In this document: positions 934 to 60,426 of the stretch, in pieces
Numbering within the stretch: position 1 is the first letter of the stretch
Layout of the letters: each line of letters opens with the position of its first letter
Made by a program: the position numbers and the translations under genes
NCBI GenBank assembly: GCA_030649995.1
Contig: JAUSEV010000048.1
Span: 1-64,000 of the forward strand
Length of the DNA stretch: 64,000 nucleotides
Direction: 5' to 3'
Origin: Candidatus Uhrbacteria bacterium
GTDB lineage: Bacteria; Patescibacteriota; Patescibacteriia; 2-12-FULL-60-25
Notes under the pieces: generated by a model
The model's database searches: none
Told to the model about the DNA's origin: nothing
Seen by the model: the letters and a program-made list of their open reading frames with translations, nothing else

Positions 934-3122
934 AGTTCACTCTCAAATCAACTTATCAACCTTCGGGTGACCAACCCGAGGCTATTCGATTGCTCACGGA
1001 GGGAGTAAAAAGAGGCGATAGATTTCAGACGCTTCTTGGAGCGACGGCAACGGGAAAAACTTTTACCATCGCGAATGTTGTTCAAAATATTCAAAAACCG
1101 ACGCTCGTCATCGCGCATAATAAAACTCTGGCCGCGCAACTATGTAACGAATTTCGGATTTTTTTCCCCGACAATGCGGTAGAGTATTTTGTTTCGTATT
1201 ACGATTACTATCAACCCGAGGCGTACATGCCAAAGAGCGATACGTATATAGAAAAAGAAGCGATGATCAACGAGGAGATTGATCGTCTGCGTCATGCGGC
1301 GACGCAAGCACTTCTCACGCGTCAGGATACCATCATCGTCGCTTCCGTTTCATGTATCTACGGCCTTGGCGCGCCGGAAGCGTATGAGCAAACGGTGCTG
1401 CACATTAAACATGGAGAGGCGGTTTCACGTGAACGGATTTTGACGAGATTGATTGAGATGCAGTTTGTGCGGACGCCGACGGATCTGCGTCGCGGAATGT
1501 TTCGCGCGCGTGGGGAGGTGTTGGAGATCATGCCGGCAAACGAGGAGGTGATCTATCGAATCGAGGCGCCGAGGGGGATTATTCAAAAAATAGAGCGGAT
1601 TGATCCGGTGACGAGGAAGCAGATGGATTCCCGCGGTTCGACTGAGCTCACCGAAGTCCTTCGCGGGAATGACAATATGAAAGAGGTTTGGATTTTTCCG
1701 GCGAAACATTTTATCACGCTTGGTCCGGAGCGTGAGCGAGCGATCAAGGTCATTCGATCGGAACTTCAAGAGCGTGTGGATTGGTTTGAGAAGAATGGGA
1801 AGTTGCTTGAGGCCGAGCGTCTTGATCGTCGGACAAAATTTGATCTCGAAATGATCGAGAATCTTGGTTATTGCAACGGCATAGAAAATTATTCGCGTCC
1901 ATTGTCCGGTCGTGCCGCCGGGGCGTCTCCGGATACGTTGTTTTCTTATTTTCCGGATGATTTTTTGTTGGTGATTGACGAGTCGCATGTAACCGTTCCG
2001 CAGCTTGGCGGGATGTATGAGGGCGATCGATCACGAAAAGAAACGTTGATCGAGTACGGATTTCGTTTACCGTCGGCGGCGGACAATCGACCGCTGAAAT
2101 TTATCGAACTTGAGAAGAAGATAAAACAGGTGATTTTTGTTTCCGCCACGCCGGGGCCGTATGAATTGAAACATTCGGATCAAGTGGTGGAGCAAATTAT
2201 TCGACCAACAGGTCTGGTTGATCCGGAAGTGATCGTGAGGCCGATCAGCCCGAACCGGAAACCCCCTGCCCCCTTATCAGGGGGTTCTGATGGGCGACAT
2301 CCCCCTGACAAGGGGGAAAGAGGGGGTTTCGGTCAAATCGACGACCTCATTTCCCGTCTCCCCCCCGTCATCCAACGAAAAGAGCGCGCGCTCATTACGA
2401 CGCTCACCAAAAAAATGGCCGAGGATTTGACGGATTTTTTAGAAGAAAAAAAATTTAAGGTGCGTTATCTGCACAGTGATATTGATACCATTGAACGCCT
2501 GAAAATTTTATCCGAGTTTCGGAAGGGGGTGTACGACATCATTGTGGGAGTCAATTTGTTGCGGGAAGGACTGGATCTGCCGGAAGTATCGCTCGTGGCG
2601 ATATTGGATGCGGATAAGGAAGGATTTTTGCGATCGGAAACCGCGCTCATCCAAACGATCGGCAGAGCGGCGCGCAATATTTCAGGACAGGTGATCCTCT
2701 ATGCGGACGTTATGACCGGTTCCATGCGTCGGGCGATTCAGGAAACGGAACGTCGGCGCGAGAAACAATTAACGTACAATAAAGAGCACGGCATTACGCC
2801 AAAGACGATCGTGAGAGCGCCGCAAGATATTCGAGCGGCTCTCGGATTATCAACCGAGGAAAAGGATGTGAAAGAAATTTTGAAACTTGAACTGAACGCG
2901 GAAACGCATGATCTCGAAACCATCAAGAAACAAAAAGAACAAGAGATGAAAGAAGCGGCATTGCGTCTCGAATTTGAGTTGGCCGCGATTTTGCGCGATG
3001 AGATCCATGTTCTTGACAAGGAAATAAAACAGCGAGGGAAATCATTTGTCATTCCTGCGGAGGCAGGAATCCATGGTGCGGGTCGCATCAAACGCCCTCC
3101 GCGTCACGGGCGCGCACGTTAA
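930..3122 (+). CDS. uvrB: excinuclease ABC subunit B
   Basis: UvrB is the damage-verifying helicase-like subunit of nucleotide excision repair and works with UvrA and UvrC, which are not in this window. Walker A lies at residues 37-44 (GATATGKT), the beta-hairpin YYDYYQPEAY near 90-100, and helicase motifs around VNLLREGLDLPEVSLV and QTIGRAARN. The C-terminal UVR motif is near residues 665-700. The GTG start overlaps the stop of the recombinase gene. Two parts are repeat-derived: about residues 444-467 come from a CCCCCTTATCAGGGGG-type element inserted in frame, and the tail after about residue 706 (VIPAEAGIH) comes from another palindromic repeat. The protein is longer than typical UvrB for this reason. 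Confidence 0.96.
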   Translation: MKFTLKSTYQPSGDQPEAIRLLTEGVKRGDRFQTLLGATATGKTFTIANVVQNIQKPTLVIAHNKTLAAQLCNEFRIFFPDNAVEYFVSYYDYYQPEAYMPKSDTYIEKEAMINEEIDRLRHAATQALLTRQDTIIVASVSCIYGLGAPEAYEQTVLHIKHGEAVSRERILTRLIEMQFVRTPTDLRRGMFRARGEVLEIMPANEEVIYRIEAPRGIIQKIERIDPVTRKQMDSRGSTELTEVLRGNDNMKEVWIFPAKHFITLGPERERAIKVIRSELQERVDWFEKNGKLLEAERLDRRTKFDLEMIENLGYCNGIENYSRPLSGRAAGASPDTLFSYFPDDFLLVIDESHVTVPQLGGMYEGDRSRKETLIEYGFRLPSAADNRPLKFIELEKKIKQVIFVSATPGPYELKHSDQVVEQIIRPTGLVDPEVIVRPISPNRKPPAPLSGGSDGRHPPDKGERGGFGQIDDLISRLPPVIQRKERALITTLTKKMAEDLTDFLEEKKFKVRYLHSDIDTIERLKILSEFRKGVYDIIVGVNLLREGLDLPEVSLVAILDADKEGFLRSETALIQTIGRAARNISGQVILYADVMTGSMRRAIQETERRREKQLTYNKEHGITPKTIVRAPQDIRAALGLSTEEKDVKEILKLELNAETHDLETIKKQKEQEMKEAALRLEFELAAILRDEIHVLDKEIKQRGKSFVIPAEAGIHGAGRIKRPPRHGRAR
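2258..2330. repeat. family D palindromic repeat inside uvrB
   Basis: The element has two palindromic arms, CCCCCTTATCAGGGGG and CCCCCTGACAAGGGGG, between ACCCCC and GGGGGTTT ends. It lies in frame in uvrB and is translated as a Pro/Gly/Lys-rich segment containing PPDKGERGGF. Related copies occur at 17347-17420, 53562-53593 and, in degenerate form, at 8497-8545, 57161-57198 and 59533-59567. Confidence 0.9.
3047..3075. repeat. family C palindromic repeat at the 3' end of uvrB
   Basis: A short inverted repeat, ATTCCTGC-GGAG-GCAGGAAT, within GTCATTCC...GGAATCCA. It encodes VIPAEAGIH at the UvrB C-terminus, after the UVR motif. The same family lies at 31349-31420, 47130-47203 and 15263-15374. It resembles the dRS3-type repeats of Neisseria, a resemblance from memory rather than a search. 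Confidence 0.85.
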
Positions 3123-3146
3123 ATCATTTTTTGCTATACTCACCCC

Positions 3147-4250
3147 ATGTCACCACGCGCAAATAAGTTGACCAAGGGTGTTTTGATGATGGTGGGAACG
3201 ATTATCGGCGCCGGCGTTTTTGCCTTGCCCGCCATGTTTGCCTATGTCGGTTTTTGGCCGGGCACGTTTCTTTTTTGGGGATTGGCAGGCACCGTTACCT
3301 GCGTCCATCTGCTATTGGTTGATATCAGCCTGTCATTTCCCATGAAGCAGCGTTTGGTTGGATATGCCAAAGATGTTCTGGGGCGAGGCGGGTTTGTGAT
3401 CGCCTCCATCACCTATCCGTTATCCAGCATCGGCATGATTTTGGCTTATCTTATTTTGGGAGGAGAATTTTTGGATCAAATTCTTTCCTTCACCGGTTGG
3501 AGCGGACATGTGTTGAGCTGGCAACTCTTTTTCTGGGCGGGTGGAGCGATCATCGTTTTGTTGGGTTTGAAGTTCGTCGCCAAAATCGAATCGCTCGCAA
3601 CGATTTTATTGATCGCGTGCATGACGATGATTTCTTTTTTGGCCGTTGGCCGGATCGATTTGCATCTCGCGTTGACGACGCATTGGAACGATCTGCTGAT
3701 TCCATTTGGCGTTTTTCTTTTCAGCTTGTCCGGCATGAAGATCGTGAGCGAGGTCGTGGATCTGACCCGTCCGCGACGGCGTGATGCGATGTGGGCGGTC
3801 GGCATCGGGACGGGGATCGCCGCGCTTTTGTCTTGGGTGTTTGGCGTCTCATTATTTTTGGCTGGTGGAACGGAGATCGGCCAATGGGGTTGGCTCATTC
3901 CCACGTTCGGATTTTTGGCGATCGTCACCTCGTACGTGGCGGTCGCGCAGGATTTGAAGGCAACGCTTCATCTCGATTTTCATCTGGATCGTTTCATGTC
4001 ATGGGTCACGGCACTTGGCGTTCCGCTTCTGCTTCTGTTTTTGACGGCGCGCGATTTCCTCGCCACCATCAACATCGTCGGATCCGTTTTTGAAGCGACA
4101 AACGGCATGCTGATTTCTTTAATCGCTTGGTTCATTTTGCAAAAAAAAGCCACCACATCTTGGTGGTGGGCGCGGGCGATCCCGTTTATCACGTTCCTCA
4201 TTTTCCTAACCGGATTTCTTCATGAACTCTTTTTTCGTTCCACCCTATGA
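3147..4250 (+). CDS. aromatic amino acid permease family protein
   Basis: This 367-residue integral membrane protein has about eleven hydrophobic segments. Its N-terminus, GTIIGAGVFALPAMF near residues 17-31, is the hallmark of the aromatic amino acid transporter family (TyrP/Mtr/TnaB type, APC superfamily), which imports tryptophan or tyrosine with protons. Import would suit an organism with few amino acid biosynthetic genes. The gene begins 24 bases after uvrB and overlaps the next gene by ATGA, so translation of the pair may be coupled. The substrate cannot be read from the sequence. Confidence 0.8.
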   Translation: MSPRANKLTKGVLMMVGTIIGAGVFALPAMFAYVGFWPGTFLFWGLAGTVTCVHLLLVDISLSFPMKQRLVGYAKDVLGRGGFVIASITYPLSSIGMILAYLILGGEFLDQILSFTGWSGHVLSWQLFFWAGGAIIVLLGLKFVAKIESLATILLIACMTMISFLAVGRIDLHLALTTHWNDLLIPFGVFLFSLSGMKIVSEVVDLTRPRRRDAMWAVGIGTGIAALLSWVFGVSLFLAGGTEIGQWGWLIPTFGFLAIVTSYVAVAQDLKATLHLDFHLDRFMSWVTALGVPLLLLFLTARDFLATINIVGSVFEATNGMLISLIAWFILQKKATTSWWWARAIPFITFLIFLTGFLHELFFRSTL

Positions 4251-14729: not shown

Positions 14730-15131
14730 ATGCGGCAGGCAAACGGTCCCCCGAAGCAGCACACCTTCCTCGTTTCCATCCTCGTCGCGACGCTCCTCTC
14801 CGTGATCGGCTTCACCAACCCCGACCCGTCGACGATCGTCGCCGACAACGTGGTCACGGCGAGCGCCGACGAGACGACCCCGCCGCCGATCTTCACCGAC
14901 ACCGGCGGCGAGGACGTCACCAAGGAGGCGGCCAATACCAGCCACTACGACCCGGCGGCCGCCATCAACCACCCGACCGAGACCGACGGCGCCTACGCCC
15001 TCACCCTCTGGCGGCGCATCGGCATCGACCGGCCCATCAGCACCGACAGCAACATCGCTCCCACCGCGCGGCACCTCACCGCCTCCGCCACCGCGCGCGC
15101 CTCGCCGCCGATGCGGCCGCTCCTCACCTGA
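14730..15131 (+). CDS. hypothetical small protein, probably exported or membrane-anchored
   Basis: This 133-residue protein is unrecognised. An N-terminal hydrophobic helix (HTFLVSILVATLLSVIGF, about residues 10-27) resembles a signal peptide or anchor. The rest is rich in Thr, Ala, Asp and Pro with no visible motif. AAGGAGG lies six bases before the ATG. The coding sequence is much more GC-rich than its neighbours, suggesting foreign origin or special selection. It has its own promoter and terminator. Confidence 0.65.
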   Translation: MRQANGPPKQHTFLVSILVATLLSVIGFTNPDPSTIVADNVVTASADETTPPPIFTDTGGEDVTKEAANTSHYDPAAAINHPTETDGAYALTLWRRIGIDRPISTDSNIAPTARHLTASATARASPPMRPLLT

Positions 15132-15194
15132 CCGGCAGCGCGGCCATTCATCAATCAATGGTGATAGATGGATGGCCGCGCAAACTCTCTACTC

Positions 15195-15227
15195 GAACCC
15201 CCGACACGATCTCGTGTTCGGGGGTTC
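15195..15227 (+). terminator. hairpin terminator of the 14.7-kb orphan gene
   Basis: GAACCCCCGA and TCGGGGGTTC form a strong GC-rich stem with an interior ACGA/TCGT extension, followed by TTCAATTTATTT. The T-tract is interrupted, but the position 60 bases after the stop supports a terminator. Confidence 0.7.
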
Positions 15228-26708: not shown

Positions 26709-26938
26709 AAAAAAGAGGGGATAATGAATTATAGTATACCCCGTTCCATGAATTTAAAACCCTGTCAAGATGTGGATAAATCATTTTTGATAAAATTTTA
26801 GCCCCTCTGGACAAGCTTCCCATTCTTTGCTACGCTGGTTTTGTTACGCAAATCACTCACGAATTTGCTAGAAGATTCGCCGACGCGCGCGTAGCCAATT
26901 CTTATTCACGACATCATAAGGACCACAAGATTTACACG

Positions 26939-27010
26939 ATGAACCTCGCGTTTTTACGCAACGTGATGTTTGGAATTGGCCGAACGTTGGCGAGTTGTTT
27001 GAGATTTTAA
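26939..27010 (+). CDS. putative 23-codon leader peptide of the ABC exporter
   Basis: An ATG-to-TAA ORF encodes a hydrophobic, basic peptide beginning MNLAFLRNVMFGIGR. It ends 20 bases before an intrinsic terminator that lies directly upstream of the ABC exporter gene. Bases 26986-26994 (GTTGGCGAG) near its 3' end can pair with the left arm of the terminator (27035-27043). This layout suggests ribosome-controlled attenuation. AAGGA lies about 20 bases upstream, rather far for a ribosome-binding site. No clear promoter was found at 26709-26938, which otherwise holds no gene. Confidence 0.5.
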   Translation: MNLAFLRNVMFGIGRTLASCLRF

Positions 27011-27028
27011 TCAACCATTTGAAATCTT

Positions 27029-27060
27029 AAATCCCTCGCTAACTGGCGAGGGATTTTTTT
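27029..27060 (+). terminator. intrinsic terminator / candidate attenuator before the ABC gene
   Basis: ATCCCTCGC (27031-27039) pairs with GCGAGGGAT (27046-27054) and is followed by seven T residues. Only about 40 bases separate it from the ABC exporter ATG, too few for a separate recognisable promoter, so the exporter mRNA must usually read through it. Confidence 0.85.
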
Positions 27061-27099
27061 CATCTCACACCGAACCTTGAAAACCGAAAGGGAAATGCC

Positions 27100-28953
27100 A
27101 TGGACGCGGAATCGGAAAACTGGAAAGACTATCACAAAGGCGTCGGGGAAATCCTCCATGTGTACCGTTGGATCTGGAAGGAGTTGTTGAACCAGGAAAG
27201 CCGTCGGCTGCTCCGGCCGATCATGCTGTTCACGGTGTTTGGGAATGCGCTCGCCATGCTGGTGCCTTGGGTGTTTGGTCAACTGATCGATCAGGTGCGT
27301 ACGCATAAGCTCCAGACGACCGTTCTTCTTCTGGGAGGATTTGCCGCGGCAAAGTTTCTCCACAAGCGGTGCGGTCATTACGTGGGATGCGCGCGGGAGA
27401 TGTTTTTCGGGGCGAGCCGCGGCAGCGTCGATGAGGCGACGAATCGTCTGTTCTTCGAAAAATCCTTGGGGCAAATGCTGCAAGATCATGACCAGTTGTC
27501 TGCGGCAAACCTGAACAAGGGAAGAAATCAGCTCTATCAGATCATGGATCTCTTACTGTTTGAAGGCGTCGAGACGGCACTCATGCTCCTCATGGCGTTC
27601 GTCTGTTTGTGGATACTCCATCCGCTCTCCGGCGCGATCGTGACGACGGTATTCTTCATCTTCTTTTTGTGGTCGCGCTTCTTGCATCGTAAAATCGCAG
27701 AGGTCTGCGTGCCTATTGATGTGGCCTTTCGTTGGCTGGAACGCCATCGCACCGAAACATGGGATAAGGTAGAAAAAATCAAAACCGGCGGCAAAGAAGA
27801 AGAAGAGGTCAGCTTCATGGCTCATCGGTTTCGAGAAATCCTGACTAAGGATCGTTCCTTCTGGCTGTGGTTCATCAAACAACTGACACGACGGAGTATG
27901 TTAAATGATCTGGCTCTGCTTGCAATCGTCATGATTGGCAGTTGGCACATGTGGCGCGGTGAATGGAGTTTGGGATTGTTTTATCCGGTGTATACATGGT
28001 CTTGTCTCATGGTTGACAGCTTCGAACGGATGAGCCGGATTGAACAGCGGATCAGCTGGAGTTTTCCATCGGTCAGCTCACTCAAAGAAACGCTAACCAT
28101 GAAGCCGGATATTCGTGATACTGCCAATGCCATCGAACCGGATGTCGCAGAAGGCGTGCATGTTGAGGTTTTACACGTCTCACACGCCTACCGTTTGCGG
28201 ACCAATGACCAAGCGCGGCACGCGGTTCTCTCGGATGTGAGTTTTACGATTGAACCCGGCGAAGTGGTGGCACTCTTGGGTCCGAGCGGAGCAGGGAAAT
28301 CGACGCTCATGCGTCTCATCCAGCGCGGGATGGATCCGGAACAAGGCGCCATCTTTGTGAACGGTCATGACCTGCGGAACCTACGGCTTCGTTCATGGCT
28401 CATGAATACCGGTTATATCCCGCAACAACCAATCATCCTGACAGGCACCATCCGTTCCAATCTTCTGTACGGTCTGGATCCGGATGCTCGGACACGAGTG
28501 AGTGACGAAGAGCTGCTTAAACTCATGCGTGAGTTGCGTATCGATTTCGGCGGACGTTTGACTCATGGGCTGGAAACTCCGGTGGGGGAACGGGGGATCA
28601 AGCTCTCCGGTGGAGAGGCGCAGCGTTTGAGTATCGGTTCGGCCGTAGCCAAGCGACCACGATTCATGTTGATCGACGAGGCTACGAGCTCGCTCGATTC
28701 AACCACGGAAAAAGAAGTACAGATCGGCTTGGCCAGAGCTCTTCAAGGGAGAGTGAGCGCACTCGTGATCGCGCATCGGTTGAGTACAGTGCGTCACATC
28801 TGCAACAAGTTTGTGGTACTCAAGCGCGTGGATGATCTCGGAGAAGGGGAGTCGCAGGTCGAAGCGGTCGCCAACTCGTTCGAAAATCTGTATCCCATCT
28901 CTCGAACCTTCCGCAGTCTGGCAGATGATCAGGGAATCATCATCGCACTTTAA
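27100..28953 (+). CDS. ABC transporter, fused permease and ATPase (exporter type)
   Basis: The 617-residue protein is a half-size ABC exporter: an N-terminal membrane domain with about six TM segments (to about residue 330) and a C-terminal ATPase. Walker A is LLGPSGAGKST near residue 392, the signature LSGGEAQRLSIG near 502, and Walker B FMLIDEATSSLD near 522, with the H-loop in IAHRLST. The substrate is unknown; lipid, peptide or drug are all possible. GGGAAA precedes the ATG, and the upstream leader ORF and terminator suggest attenuation. Its own terminator follows. Confidence 0.9.
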   Translation: MDAESENWKDYHKGVGEILHVYRWIWKELLNQESRRLLRPIMLFTVFGNALAMLVPWVFGQLIDQVRTHKLQTTVLLLGGFAAAKFLHKRCGHYVGCAREMFFGASRGSVDEATNRLFFEKSLGQMLQDHDQLSAANLNKGRNQLYQIMDLLLFEGVETALMLLMAFVCLWILHPLSGAIVTTVFFIFFLWSRFLHRKIAEVCVPIDVAFRWLERHRTETWDKVEKIKTGGKEEEEVSFMAHRFREILTKDRSFWLWFIKQLTRRSMLNDLALLAIVMIGSWHMWRGEWSLGLFYPVYTWSCLMVDSFERMSRIEQRISWSFPSVSSLKETLTMKPDIRDTANAIEPDVAEGVHVEVLHVSHAYRLRTNDQARHAVLSDVSFTIEPGEVVALLGPSGAGKSTLMRLIQRGMDPEQGAIFVNGHDLRNLRLRSWLMNTGYIPQQPIILTGTIRSNLLYGLDPDARTRVSDEELLKLMRELRIDFGGRLTHGLETPVGERGIKLSGGEAQRLSIGSAVAKRPRFMLIDEATSSLDSTTEKEVQIGLARALQGRVSALVIAHRLSTVRHICNKFVVLKRVDDLGEGESQVEAVANSFENLYPISRTFRSLADDQGIIIAL

Positions 28954-28961
28954 ACACATCG

Positions 28962-28991
28962 TCCGACAGACACTCTCTGTCGGATTTTTTT
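28962..28991 (+). terminator. intrinsic terminator of the ABC exporter gene
   Basis: TCCGACAGA and TCTGTCGGA form a perfect 9-bp stem around CACTC, followed by seven T residues. A second hairpin, AAGACC-CTTAA-GGTCTT with a T run, follows at 29048-29069. Confidence 0.9.
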
Positions 28992-29047
28992 GTTGTGAGA
29001 GGGGATGATGAAAGGATGAAGAAGAAGCGTCGCACAATATACCTTAG

Positions 29048-29069
29048 AAGACCCTTAAGGTCTTTTTTT
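29048..29069 (+). terminator. second hairpin terminator downstream of the ABC gene
   Basis: AAGACC/GGTCTT with a five-base loop runs into seven T residues. It may back up the terminator at 28962. Confidence 0.65.
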
Positions 29070-29076
29070 CAAATAT

Positions 29077-29112
29077 ACTCATTACTCATTACGCATTCCG
29101 CATTACGCATTT
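29077..29112. repeat. heptamer repeat before the 3' end of ftsQ
   Basis: ACTCATT, ACTCATT, ACGCATT, CCGCATT and ACGCATT repeat with 7-base spacing. The inverted partner seen at other heptamer loci is missing here. Confidence 0.75.
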
Positions 29113-29116
29113 GTAT

Positions 29117-29947
29117 CTACTTCACATACACTTTCCCCGGTATTCTCACATCAATATATTGTATGGCCTTCATATTTTTCGGTTGCGACTTTTTAAACAT
29201 CAGATACGCGCGAATTTGCGGCCCTATGGGTTCCATGACATCAATCACCACCGATTCCCCTTCCGCGCTCTTTAAAATCGCCCTGCTGCTCGTTGAGGTC
29301 TTTGGTAGATCAAACTCACGGTACTTCATACCCTCTAAAATCGTTTCAGACGCGATTTGGAGCCATGCCTTGACGGTTGAGGCATCAGCCACGCTCTGAC
29401 CTATAACCACGCGATCATCCAGATCGCGATGGAACATAGGCGGATCATCGGGAGTCGGTAGCTTAGATCCAAGAATTCGCGCCTGCGCCCGTTGCCGCTC
29501 GTCCGGCATCAGCTCGTGTAAAACCGTCCCTTGCAGATCAACCCATACATATTGCTGATGAGAATGAAAAATAAATTTACGCGTCTGCTCTTCCATCTTG
29601 AGTCGTAAAACGTTGAGATAGGTTTTATCCACAGAAGCGTTGGTCACGAACAACCGCTGACTTAGCTCATGAATGAGACGCGGCCTATCAACAAACCAAG
29701 CGTGACGCGCAGGCCAAGGCCGCCACGCAGGTCGCTCATCCAAAATTTGCAGCACTTCCCTACTGACATCGATGGCATCAAGTGATCGTGCGCCCTGAAC
29801 CTCAACGCTGTTGATCACAAACAGATCGCTCATGAAAAGAATGTATAGCCAACCGATGAGAGCGATGGCGCCCAAAAAATAAAATACGCCTCGCGTGCCG
29901 GAGCGCGGTTGAGAATGATCGCGAAACGTCCCCTCTGGTTTTTCCAT
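29117..29947 (-). CDS. ftsQ: FtsQ/DivIB-type cell division protein
   Basis: The 276-residue protein has a cytoplasmic N-terminus, one TM helix (about residues 20-42) and an extracytoplasmic POTRA-like segment (FVINSVEVQGARSLDAIDVSREVLQIL), followed by a beta domain with YVWVDLQGTVLHEL. This is the FtsQ/DivIB layout of the divisome protein that links FtsB/FtsL to FtsW/FtsI. ftsB (60.4 kb) and ftsW (10.7 kb) are encoded elsewhere in the window. Sequence similarity is weak, so the call rests mainly on architecture. Confidence 0.75.
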   Translation of the reverse strand: MEKPEGTFRDHSQPRSGTRGVFYFLGAIALIGWLYILFMSDLFVINSVEVQGARSLDAIDVSREVLQILDERPAWRPWPARHAWFVDRPRLIHELSQRLFVTNASVDKTYLNVLRLKMEEQTRKFIFHSHQQYVWVDLQGTVLHELMPDERQRAQARILGSKLPTPDDPPMFHRDLDDRVVIGQSVADASTVKAWLQIASETILEGMKYREFDLPKTSTSSRAILKSAEGESVVIDVMEPIGPQIRAYLMFKKSQPKNMKAIQYIDVRIPGKVYVK

Positions 29948-29970
29948 GTGACCCCCATTTTAACATATCT

Positions 29971-30060
29971 TGTCATTGCGAGGAGGAGTCTGCGACGACG
30001 AAGCAATCTCTCAGTAACCAAGAGATTGCCGCGCTTCGTATGACTTCGCTCGCAATGACA
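29971..30060. repeat. family B palindromic repeat between serS and ftsQ
   Basis: TGTCATTGCGAGGAGGAG and TCGCTCGCAATGACA ends with inner GCAATCTC/GAGATTGC arms; about 90 bases. It matches the copies at 22559, 49955 and 53097. Confidence 0.9.
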
Positions 30061-40805: not shown

Positions 40806-40903
40806 AAAAAGTATGTGGATAACCTCACTATTGACGATTCTTGGTATTTGGATCTATACTGTATCTGTATCTCTACAGAAAAGCGCTTCTTGGGGTTCCG
40901 TCC

Positions 40904-41407
40904 CTAAGCGGCGTTTTTCTTTTTATATTCAAGTTTGTCTCGCAAATTATTCATGAACCATATCTTTTCCTTCGCGGTTTGTTTTAACAAACTTGAACAA
41001 TGCACCATATCAGGACTCAACACAACTTCCAATTTACTATTCTCATATAAATGTTTAACAAGAGAATAAAAATCGCCGTCGCTTGAAACAATCACCGCTT
41101 TATCATATTCGTGGTATTCGATCATGGTGCGTAAAACAAGATCCGCATCTATATTCCCTTTAATTTTTCCATCGGCATCCGGGATAGTTGGTTTGAACTT
41201 AAGGATGAAGCCCGCTTCTTGTAAGCGATCGTATAATGACTGGTTCAGCACGACAAAACCAATAAAAATGTAAGCTTTTTTGACACCGTATTTTTCAGCG
41301 AGGTACACACGGAATTTTTTATAATCCAATTTCCATCCAAGCTTTTGTATGCCGAGATTGAGATTTTGGCTGTCTATAAACGCGTAATTACTTTCTTTTT
41401 TGAGCAT
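40904..41407 (-). CDS. NYN domain (LabA/DUF88-like) protein
   Basis: The protein of about 167 residues has the PIN-like NYN nuclease fold. Conserved acidic residues are visible in YAFIDSQNLNLG (first Asp), KGNIDADLVLRTMIEY and IVSSDGDFYSLVKHLYEN. Family members bind or cleave RNA. I placed the start at 41407 (MLKKESNYAF); in-frame ATGs at 41422, 41425 and 41452 are alternatives. A GC-rich hairpin with T runs lies just after the stop (40880-40918). Confidence 0.82.
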   Translation of the reverse strand: MLKKESNYAFIDSQNLNLGIQKLGWKLDYKKFRVYLAEKYGVKKAYIFIGFVVLNQSLYDRLQEAGFILKFKPTIPDADGKIKGNIDADLVLRTMIEYHEYDKAVIVSSDGDFYSLVKHLYENSKLEVVLSPDMVHCSSLLKQTAKEKIWFMNNLRDKLEYKKKNAA

Positions 41408-43182: not shown

Positions 43183-43269
43183 GGGCGGGTGGCGAAATTG
43201 GTAGACGCACTACCTTGAGGTGGTAGCGGCCGCAAGGCTTTAAGGGTTCAAATCCCTTCCCGCCCACCA
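43183..43269 (+). tRNA. tRNA-Leu (anticodon GAG)
   Basis: An 87-base cloverleaf with acceptor GGGCGGG/CCCGCCC, D-arm TGGCGAAATTGGTAGACGC, anticodon loop CTTGAGG, a long variable arm and T-arm AAGGGTTCAAATCCCTT. The 3' CCA is encoded. The long variable arm and D-loop are typical of tRNA-Leu. Confidence 0.97.
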
Positions 43270-43283
43270 CATGAATCTGATCG

Positions 43284-43360
43284 GGACGCTTAGCTCAGTT
43301 GGTTAGAGCATCTGCTTTACACGCAGAGGGTCGTAGGTTCGACTCCTACAGCGTCCACCA
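43284..43360 (+). tRNA. tRNA-Val (anticodon TAC)
   Basis: A 77-base cloverleaf with acceptor GGACGCT/AGCGTCC, D-arm TAGCTCAGTTGGTTAGAGC, anticodon stem-loop CTGCTTTACACGCAG reading TAC, and T-arm GTAGGTTCGACTCCTAC. CCA is encoded. It follows tRNA-Leu by 14 bases and is probably in the same transcript. Confidence 0.97.
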
Positions 43361-48479: not shown

Positions 48480-48716
48480 AAACTACCCCGCAGCAGAGCT
48501 GGCGGGGTATCAATCCTAAATCAAAACTCTGTCATTCTGAACGTAATTCTATGGAGTGAAGAATCTCCGGATTCGACCGAAGATCCTTCGTTTCGTCGGA
48601 CTTCACTCAGGATGACAGATGGCTCACGCAGCAAGCTGCGGGGTATTGACTCGGAGAAAAAACAAAGGTATCAAAAAAGTCCGGTCGGACTTTTTTGATA
48701 CCTTTGTTTTTCTGAT
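48480..48716. repeat. composite palindromic element (family A core), copy 6, with terminator hairpin
   Basis: It contains the left flank TACCCCGCAGCAGAGC, the core 48529-48618, the right flank ATGGCTCACGCAGCAAGCTGC, and the 23-bp hairpin at 48660-48709 identical to that at 13131. It is the most complete copy in the window and lies upstream of tyrS. Confidence 0.85.
48660..48709. terminator. second copy of the 23-bp hairpin
   Basis: The same 23-bp stem and GGTC loop as at 13131-13180, with T residues downstream on the plus strand and A residues upstream, so it could terminate in either direction. No plus-strand gene ends here. Confidence 0.7.
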
Positions 48717-58967: not shown

Positions 58968-59528
58968 ATGAAAATCAAAATCGTCAATGCGACAAAGATT
59001 CGCAACACCATTGATACGGACTTTCACGGTGTGGGTTCGCATGGAGATTATCCCTACATTCCCCTTGATGAGCTGTGGATTGACGCTTGCCTGAAAAAGG
59101 AGAAAGACCTGTTTTTAAAATTGTGGAAATTGGAACACTCCATGCGTGGAAAATCTTTTCGTCTGATTCGAGAAAAAGCCAAAAAAACATTTACGCTCCC
59201 AAAGAAAGTAAAAATTGTGGTTACAAAGAGCGTCCAAAAAGGCGATCTCACGATTCGCTATGTTGACGGTGCCTCGGTACGCCGAGCCCTTGATCCCTAT
59301 TTTTTGCTGGCCAGTCATCATCTTGTTGACGCATCGATTCCAAAAAAAGAAATTTGGATTGATACGAACATTGATCCGAAAGAATGGAAATATTGGTTGA
59401 TCCACGCGCTTCACGAACGTGAGCGGATGATTCAAGGCATGGCGCATGACGACGCGCACGATTTTGCGATCGCCGCCCAACGCATGGCCAGACGCAAAGA
59501 TGGAGTCGCGGAATTTTTGAGAGGGTAA
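58968..59528 (+). CDS. hypothetical protein with two similar halves
   Basis: The 186-residue protein appears internally duplicated. The first half has IRNTIDTDFHGVGSHGDYPYIPLDELWID; the second has VRRALDPYFLLASHHLVDASIPKKEIWID, each ending in a helical segment. HALHERERM...DDAHDFA in the second half has an HxxxE arrangement that might bind metal, but the family is not recognised. It stands alone, downstream of a palindrome. Confidence 0.7.
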   Translation: MKIKIVNATKIRNTIDTDFHGVGSHGDYPYIPLDELWIDACLKKEKDLFLKLWKLEHSMRGKSFRLIREKAKKTFTLPKKVKIVVTKSVQKGDLTIRYVDGASVRRALDPYFLLASHHLVDASIPKKEIWIDTNIDPKEWKYWLIHALHERERMIQGMAHDDAHDFAIAAQRMARRKDGVAEFLRG

Positions 59529-59572: not shown

Positions 59573-59613
59573 AGAAATAAAAATAAGCCGATGGGAGGTC
59601 CCAAACGGCTTAT
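59573..59613 (-). terminator. intrinsic terminator of the structured transcription unit
   Basis: On the minus strand ATAAGCCG and CGGCTTAT pair (59613-59606 with 59590-59583), with an inner TGGGA/TCCCA stem, followed by TTTTTATTT. It ends the transcript that begins near 60325. Confidence 0.85.
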
Positions 59614-60325
59614 CGAGAAGAAGAGAGAAGGACCTTAGCCTCCCCACGATCGAATTCCACCGCCTCCAGCAAGGCTGCTTGGATCGAATCGGATTTGAAC
59701 CCGTTCCGATCTTCCGCTACCTGTGCCATAGGTTTGGCTTCATTCGACCGCGGGAGAGGCCGCGGCGGAAGTTCCCATGAGACACGCGAGCGTATCTCAT
59801 GTTGCCCTCGAAGGGCAGGTTCTCCCCAAGGTGACCGACGAATCGATCCCCCTGCCTTACCACGCGCTGAACCTTGCGGTTCCATCTTCTACGCAAACTT
59901 TTAAGGGTTCATGCAGATGATGAGAAGTTTTGATTTTGAGTCTTTCGACTCTCAATCATCCCTCCCTGCTCGTGGTTGATCATGTGTCCTGGTGACTCCC
60001 GTGACACATGATCTTGATCAGTCTTTGAAAAGCACCTTGGCTTTCCAGCTTTCAGTCTTTCGACTTGAGCCTTCTGGCTTCGATGGGGGGAAACTCGCCG
60101 AGATTGACTTCGCCTTGCGGCTGATCTTTCTCTTCGAGCTGTTCCCTTACTCCTCTCTGACTGATCTGAACACCCGACTATGTTGTCAGCTTTGTGTTGG
60201 GAGTGGACAGGAACGCGCCTTTTCCACTCTTATTTTGACTCGTGCCGATTTCTCGACCCGTGCCGAAGCCACTCTGCTGATCGCCTTCGGGTGTTACGCT
60301 GTGTGAAGGTGCTGCTTGAAGTTTA
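59583..60325 (-). ncRNA. candidate large structured RNA (about 740 nt)
   Basis: A promoter-to-terminator unit with no convincing long ORF but many local hairpins on the minus strand. These include GAACC-GCAA-GGTTC (59882-59869), GAGTC-GAAA-GACTC (59951-59938), AGTC-GAAA-GACT (60065-60054), GCC-GCAA-GGC (60121-60112), an 11-bp GATCATGTGTC/GACACATGATC stem (60013-59978), ATGAGATACG-CTCG-CGTGTCTCAT (59800-59777), GCCCT-TCG-AGGGC and CCGCGG/CCGCGG. Four are GNRA-capped, as in large folded RNAs. No tmRNA, RNase P or SRP signature was found. A 91-codon ORF (59610-59885) overlaps the 3' part, so a protein-coding role is not excluded. Confidence 0.55.
59610..59885 (-). CDS. possible small protein within the structured unit
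   Basis: A 91-codon ORF ends with TAA exactly at the terminator stem, the usual place for a real stop. The last 39 residues (MAQVAEDRNGFKSDSIQAAL and following) read like a plausible helix. Against this, there is no spaced ribosome-binding site at 59885, and the ORF covers several strong hairpins. Coding and structured-RNA readings compete here. Confidence 0.35.
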   Translation of the reverse strand: MEPQGSARGKAGGSIRRSPWGEPALRGQHEIRSRVSWELPPRPLPRSNEAKPMAQVAEDRNGFKSDSIQAALLEAVEFDRGEAKVLLSSSR

Positions 60326-60328
60326 TAC

Positions 60329-60357
60329 AATTTATATCTGATAAAATAACGCGTCAA
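60329..60357 (-). promoter_or_regulatory. probable promoter of the structured unit
   Basis: TTGACG (60357-60352) is followed after 17 bases by TAAATT, or after 15 by TATAAA, on the minus strand, in an AT-rich region. It would start a transcript near 60322 running to the terminator at 59573. Confidence 0.6.
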
Positions 60358-60426
60358 GGGGTACTTATCCACAAAATTGTGGATAAGTGAAAAACTTAAA
60401 AAACACCAATAAATACAGCCATAATT

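Follow-up and report, generated by a model that had tools for sequence, protein, structure and literature searches.

We identified what is very probably a compact, multi-domain folded RNA on the minus strand of a 64-kb stretch of a Candidatus Uhrbacteria genome (the whole of which is referred to here as the window). The RNA runs from about position 60322 to 59582 and measures about 740 to 745 nt including its terminator (Table 1). We propose that this locus carries a stand-alone gene whose product is a structured, noncoding RNA of about 745 nt, a reading to which we assign a probability of about 0.6 and in which transcription is predicted. Directly observed are a strand-specific fold, an excess of GNRA tetraloops, a single-copy locus poor in open reading frames (ORFs), and absence from Rfam. 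To our knowledge, few bacterial RNAs of such size and complexity have been described, and the functions of the best-studied ones are still open.

An earlier, sequence-only reading had marked a minus-strand unit of about 740 nt at 59573-60357 as a candidate for a novel large structured RNA, and the fold statistics bear out both the unit and its strand. The minimum free energy (MFE) of the minus strand was -317.7 kcal/mol, compared to -241.9 +/- 6.6 kcal/mol in dinucleotide shuffles (z = -11.6). With other boundaries the minus strand gave z-scores near -10 (-10.0 in the strand comparison), whereas the plus strand reached only -4.2. When the 64 kb were scanned in 250-nt pieces on both strands (638 windows, mean z -0.5, s.d. 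1.7), the three consecutive minus-strand windows starting at 59601, 59801 and 60001 were among the lowest (z = -6.4, -6.9 and -5.5). The locus thus shows a strand-specific fold more stable than shuffled sequence, as is looked for in a structured noncoding RNA. A few other sites in the window fold as strongly, and part of these do so on either strand, which is the behavior of simple inverted repeats; the unit is set apart from them by its length, strand bias and loops. The other strong outliers lie at 48601, 38801, 15001-15201 and 2201; the first three are probably inverted repeats rather than RNAs, because they are low on both strands.

The MFE structure holds 16 hairpin loops, where at least eight local hairpins had been claimed. 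Six of the loops are GNRA tetraloops (three GAAA, two GCAA and one GGAA), against 0.30 +/- 0.51 expected and a maximum of 2 in 120 shuffles. Five of these six are robust, with stems of pairing probability >= 0.94, and the sixth is part of an alternative pairing. Tetraloops of all kinds number 11, compared to 3.55 in shuffles. The motif set had been called typical of large folded RNAs; the count of four GNRA loops given with it was too low. GNRA-loop and strand-bias statistics offer a route to orphan RNAs from one sequence. The description as a large structured RNA outside Rfam is well supported, while its standing as a novel family rests on one sequence.

Table 1. Predicted elements of the RNA locus, in window coordinates
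Feature	Position	Strand	Basis
Folded RNA	59582..60322	-	Fold energy, window scan, pairing probabilities, GNRA count
Palindrome, 26 bp, perfect: ACTTATCCACAAAATTGTGGATAAGT, two head-to-head DnaA-box consensus 9-mers	60363..60388	.	Sequence; 5 bp upstream of the -35 box
Sigma-70-type promoter-like site, TTGACG-17-TAAATT	60329..60357	-	9/12 matches; TTGACG 60357-60352, TAAATT 60334-60329
Domain I: closing 9-bp helix, GAAA hairpin	60169..60295	-	Pairing probabilities 0.79-0.99
Domain II: closing 8-bp helix, GCAA and GAAA hairpins, repeated AGTCGAAAGACT hairpin	60016..60166	-	Pairing probabilities; repeat D1
Hairpin III: 11-bp stem	59978..60013	-	Probability 1.00
Domain IV: three hairpins, GAAA and GCAA loops	59859..59976	-	Pairing probabilities; closing stem only p = 0.61
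Hairpin V: UUCG loop	59827..59854	-	Pairing probabilities
Domain VI: long imperfect hairpin (59637-59761) and 11-bp hairpin	59623..59826	-	Probabilities 0.78-1.00
Intrinsic terminator hairpin, then TTTTTATTTC	59582..59614	-	Pairing probability 0.98 and sequence

Most helices of the RNA have a high pairing probability. The 12-nt hairpin AGTCGAAAGACT of domain II occurs again in domain IV, and a long-range pairing of 60157-60150 with 59622-59615 is predicted as a possible further contact. Within domain VI, GGGTTCAAATCC resembles a tRNA T-arm (with a match at locus L034). We regard this as coincidence: ARAGORN found no tRNA, and the stem is unlike T-stem pairing.

Comparison with known RNAs placed the unit outside all families that we could search. 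Rfam 15 covariance models, run on the whole window at gathering thresholds, detected two tRNAs only, and GOLLD, ROOL, OLE, HEARO and raiA, the families named by the sequence-only reading for such a search, did not reach their gathering thresholds in the RNA. When a 1-kb query holding the unit was compared to 4227 Rfam families with permissive filters, matches at E<10 were chance matches to unrelated families. By covariance model, the RNA does not belong to OLE, GOLLD or ROOL. The two housekeeping RNAs that are likewise large and folded, bacterial RNase P RNA (RF00010) and tmRNA (RF00023), had been set aside by signature, correctly, since both are encoded elsewhere in the same genome (C6:20476-21108 and C21:73609-74033). 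The locus has no match to the RF00010 core, and ARAGORN, which looks for tRNA-like ends and a tag ORF, found no tmRNA in the window. The RNase P RNA of this genome (L063) is 633 nt long, and an internal stretch of it resembles a dispersed repeat that matches several places in other genomes of the family.

In size and style the RNA resembles several of these families. GOLLD RNAs are bacterial and stand alone, are large and often exceed 800 nt, fold elaborately and are of open function (Rfam; PMC12286853). Phages and prophages carry them, in many cases close to tRNA islands, and a covariance model exists for them (PMC12286853), whereas the RNA described here does not match that model and lacks a phage or tRNA context: the closest tRNAs lie at 43183-43360, and neither a tRNA cluster nor phage genes adjoin it. 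ROOL is likewise a large ornate RNA and is not known to have a protein partner (Rfam; PMC12286853); our RNA differs in having no Rfam match and in lying outside a phage or prophage setting, and the pseudoknotted ROOL core was not recognized in it. OLE, of about 600 nt, shares the intricate multi-helix fold (PMC9723947). It occurs in Gram-positive extremophiles and anaerobes and forms a ribonucleoprotein with partner proteins such as OapC (PMC9723947), while our RNA has no sequence match to OLE and no recognizable partner gene in its immediate neighborhood (Pfam). OLE, GOLLD and ROOL all form homo-oligomeric complexes (PMC12286853).

These likenesses leave room for a member of a known family, be it GOLLD, ROOL, OLE, HEARO, an intron of group I or II or another RNase P-like RNA, whose divergence has taken it beyond detection by covariance models, and RNAs of this lineage can be odd, as the 633-nt RNase P RNA illustrates. 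We consider this unlikely, given that none of the 4227 families matched at E<10 beyond chance, that tRNA clusters and phage genes are missing from the neighborhood, and that the phage and viral collections returned no match.

Homologues were equally elusive. Searches by blastn found none in 96 genomes (the same genome and relatives), 381 genomes of the class or 41 of the family, and none in phages and plasmids. The class-genome matches at E-values of 0.007 to 1 were short, single-block and scattered, and nhmmer on those loci gave 0.042 at best. Single-sequence covariance models of domain VI (R1) and domain IV (R2) detected no homologue in 192 class genomes, and R1 detected none in 40 genomes covering nearly the whole family. 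In G001, a genome from the same genus, 875 kb (most of that genome) were searched by cmsearch, with models R1 to R3, and by nhmmer, and no homologue was found; even the two sister species searched yielded no relative. Exact 18-21-mers of the RNA had no match in IMG/VR; in GTDB genomes there were two (Marinobacter and Inhella), both isolated 19-20-mers.

Two controls showed that the methods are effective over such evolutionary distances. Searching by blastn with the RNase P RNA of the same genome recovered it in all relatives (25 of 25), and another unannotated structured RNA was recovered at about 72% identity between G001 and the Uhrbacteria genome. We therefore conclude that the RNA is either confined to one species or evolves much faster than both control RNAs. 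Two loci of G001 were rejected as relatives: L153, with three GNRA loops, overlies a 116-codon ORF that looks coding, and the structured RNA at L166 shares a palindrome with our locus (see below), yet the RNA was not matched by a profile built from two sequences of that locus. The RNA is an orphan: as far as searched, its signal, convincing at the RNA level, is limited to one species.

The genes flanking the RNA are ordinary chromosomal ones (PGI, divIC, bPH and a Mur ligase by Pfam). Synteny is broken on both sides: the neighbors of divIC differ among relatives, and the relatives of the 186-aa gene on the other side are found in other contexts, with differing downstream neighbors. Such flanks are compatible with a recent rearrangement or arrival and, together with the restriction to one species as far as searched, could point to a mobile or selfish RNA element that arrived recently. 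This, too, seems rather improbable to us, as the RNA is single copy in its genome (whole-genome search), has no associated recombinase or endonuclease gene, and went unmatched in the phage, plasmid and viral sequences searched.

The 186-aa protein gene itself (58968-59528, plus strand) adjoins the RNA locus and has no Pfam match, and we found no linked partner protein among the immediate neighbors of the RNA. The protein is present in 7 of the 30 genomes searched (its own included), with 38-70% identity in relatives, and in several of these its gene adjoins one whose product starts like a C39-type peptidase.

Of the two control elements that had been claimed for the unit, the terminator stood and the promoter did so only in part. 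The terminator is a strong one, although our motif scan did not pick it up, probably on account of its interrupted stem. The promoter-like site would put the start of the predicted RNA near 60322, but nine matches out of twelve occur at chance rate (4 found vs. 3.5 expected in 3 kb), so that the site counts through its position only. A weak promoter would suit a cis element, in which the RNA would be no separate gene but the divIC operon's processed tail or structured 3' UTR, as would the position of the RNA on the same strand as divIC, about 105 bp past its stop codon. We find this hard to favor: a stable palindrome and the promoter-like site intervene, 745 nt would be very long for a 3' UTR, and what comes after divIC in relatives is either tRNAs or other genes. 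In G001, as read from the sequence, two tRNA-like genes come after divIC and the RNA is absent there.

The ORFs at the locus measure 91 codons (minus strand) and 104 codons (plus strand), and their codon scores of 0.03 and 0.08 are higher than in wrong frames (-0.09 +/- 0.08) and lower than in genes (0.17 +/- 0.07). On codon use the case could go either way, and it is mainly the fold statistics that speak for RNA rather than protein. A coding or decayed coding sequence with accidental structure is very improbable, for all the two ORFs and their intermediate scores, since neither ORF has a Pfam match, a convincing tblastn match (one collection per ORF) or, as the sequence-only reading had noted, a clear ribosome-binding site upstream of its start, and since both the excess of GNRA loops and the strand specificity of the fold lie far beyond chance. 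The locus is probably not a protein gene.

We return to the stand-alone RNA gene. Transcription would proceed leftward from the RNA's own promoter just downstream of divIC and stop at its own terminator. From its 5' end, the transcript would fold into domain I, the branched domain II, hairpin III, domain IV with its three hairpins, the short hairpin V and, at the 3' end, the long domain VI; the five GNRA-capped arms could dock into helices as tertiary contacts. We think it most likely that the RNA acts in trans as a structural RNA, whether by itself, with a protein or as an oligomer. We favor a stand-alone, trans-acting structural RNA because of its size, its single copy, its own terminator and the lack of a linked protein gene. 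That it works in the manner of the ornate RNAs OLE, GOLLD and ROOL is a tentative suggestion, drawn by analogy.

The genome is reduced (about 1.08 Mb) and space in it is costly. A large RNA there, if real, would suggest that such RNAs emerge or spread more frequently than searches by family bring to light. Large structural RNAs would be under-counted by these searches, because searches that depend on homologues cannot see orphans.

The palindrome next to the promoter-like site adds a further feature. The DnaA-box 9-mer TTATCCACA occurs 7 times in the window vs. 0.27 expected, an over-representation of about 26-fold. The palindrome was found once in about 490 kb of the Uhrbacteria genome and once in 875 kb of G001 (L166:2713-2738), and in both genomes the palindrome ACTTATCCACANNNNTGTGGATAAGT adjoins a structured RNA. 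That DnaA controls the RNA by way of these promoter-proximal boxes is speculative. An equally simple reading is that the divIC transcript could end in a terminator-like hairpin formed by the palindrome. That the RNA is the first of a new, taxonomically very restricted ornate class, with its transcription tied to DnaA via the palindromic box pair, is a scenario we hold to be doubtful.

The structured RNA next to the palindrome in G001 belongs to a second large structured region of about 480 nt (z near -7), the one that served as a control above, which is conserved between the two genomes (L192 in the Uhrbacteria genome, G000:C8, about 3230-3710, minus strand; L166 in G001:C58, about 2800-3260, plus strand). 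In the Uhrbacteria genome a single DnaA box precedes this second RNA, where G001 has the full palindrome. The region lies between a gene of 391-395 aa and a TraR/DksA-like gene in both genomes (the latter label is from the sequence, not from a family search) and has no Rfam match. In the two-sequence consensus, 16 pairs were changed on both sides and kept; both strands fold well, so that either may be the RNA.

Three other observations concern the window at large. On the plus strand at 40814-40930, TGTGGATAA is followed by 8 nt, TTGACG, 18 nt, TATACT and then about 60 nt that close with a T-run hairpin resembling a terminator; this could be a small RNA. At 26771-27065, also on the plus strand, TGTGGATAA precedes 7 nt, TTGATA and about 250 nt in which no gene is obvious and which run up to a strong intrinsic terminator; matches to Rfam in this stretch were weak and leader-like only. 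Finally, the GC skew changes sign at about 28000-30000, from positive to negative, a switch of the kind seen at replication origins or termini.
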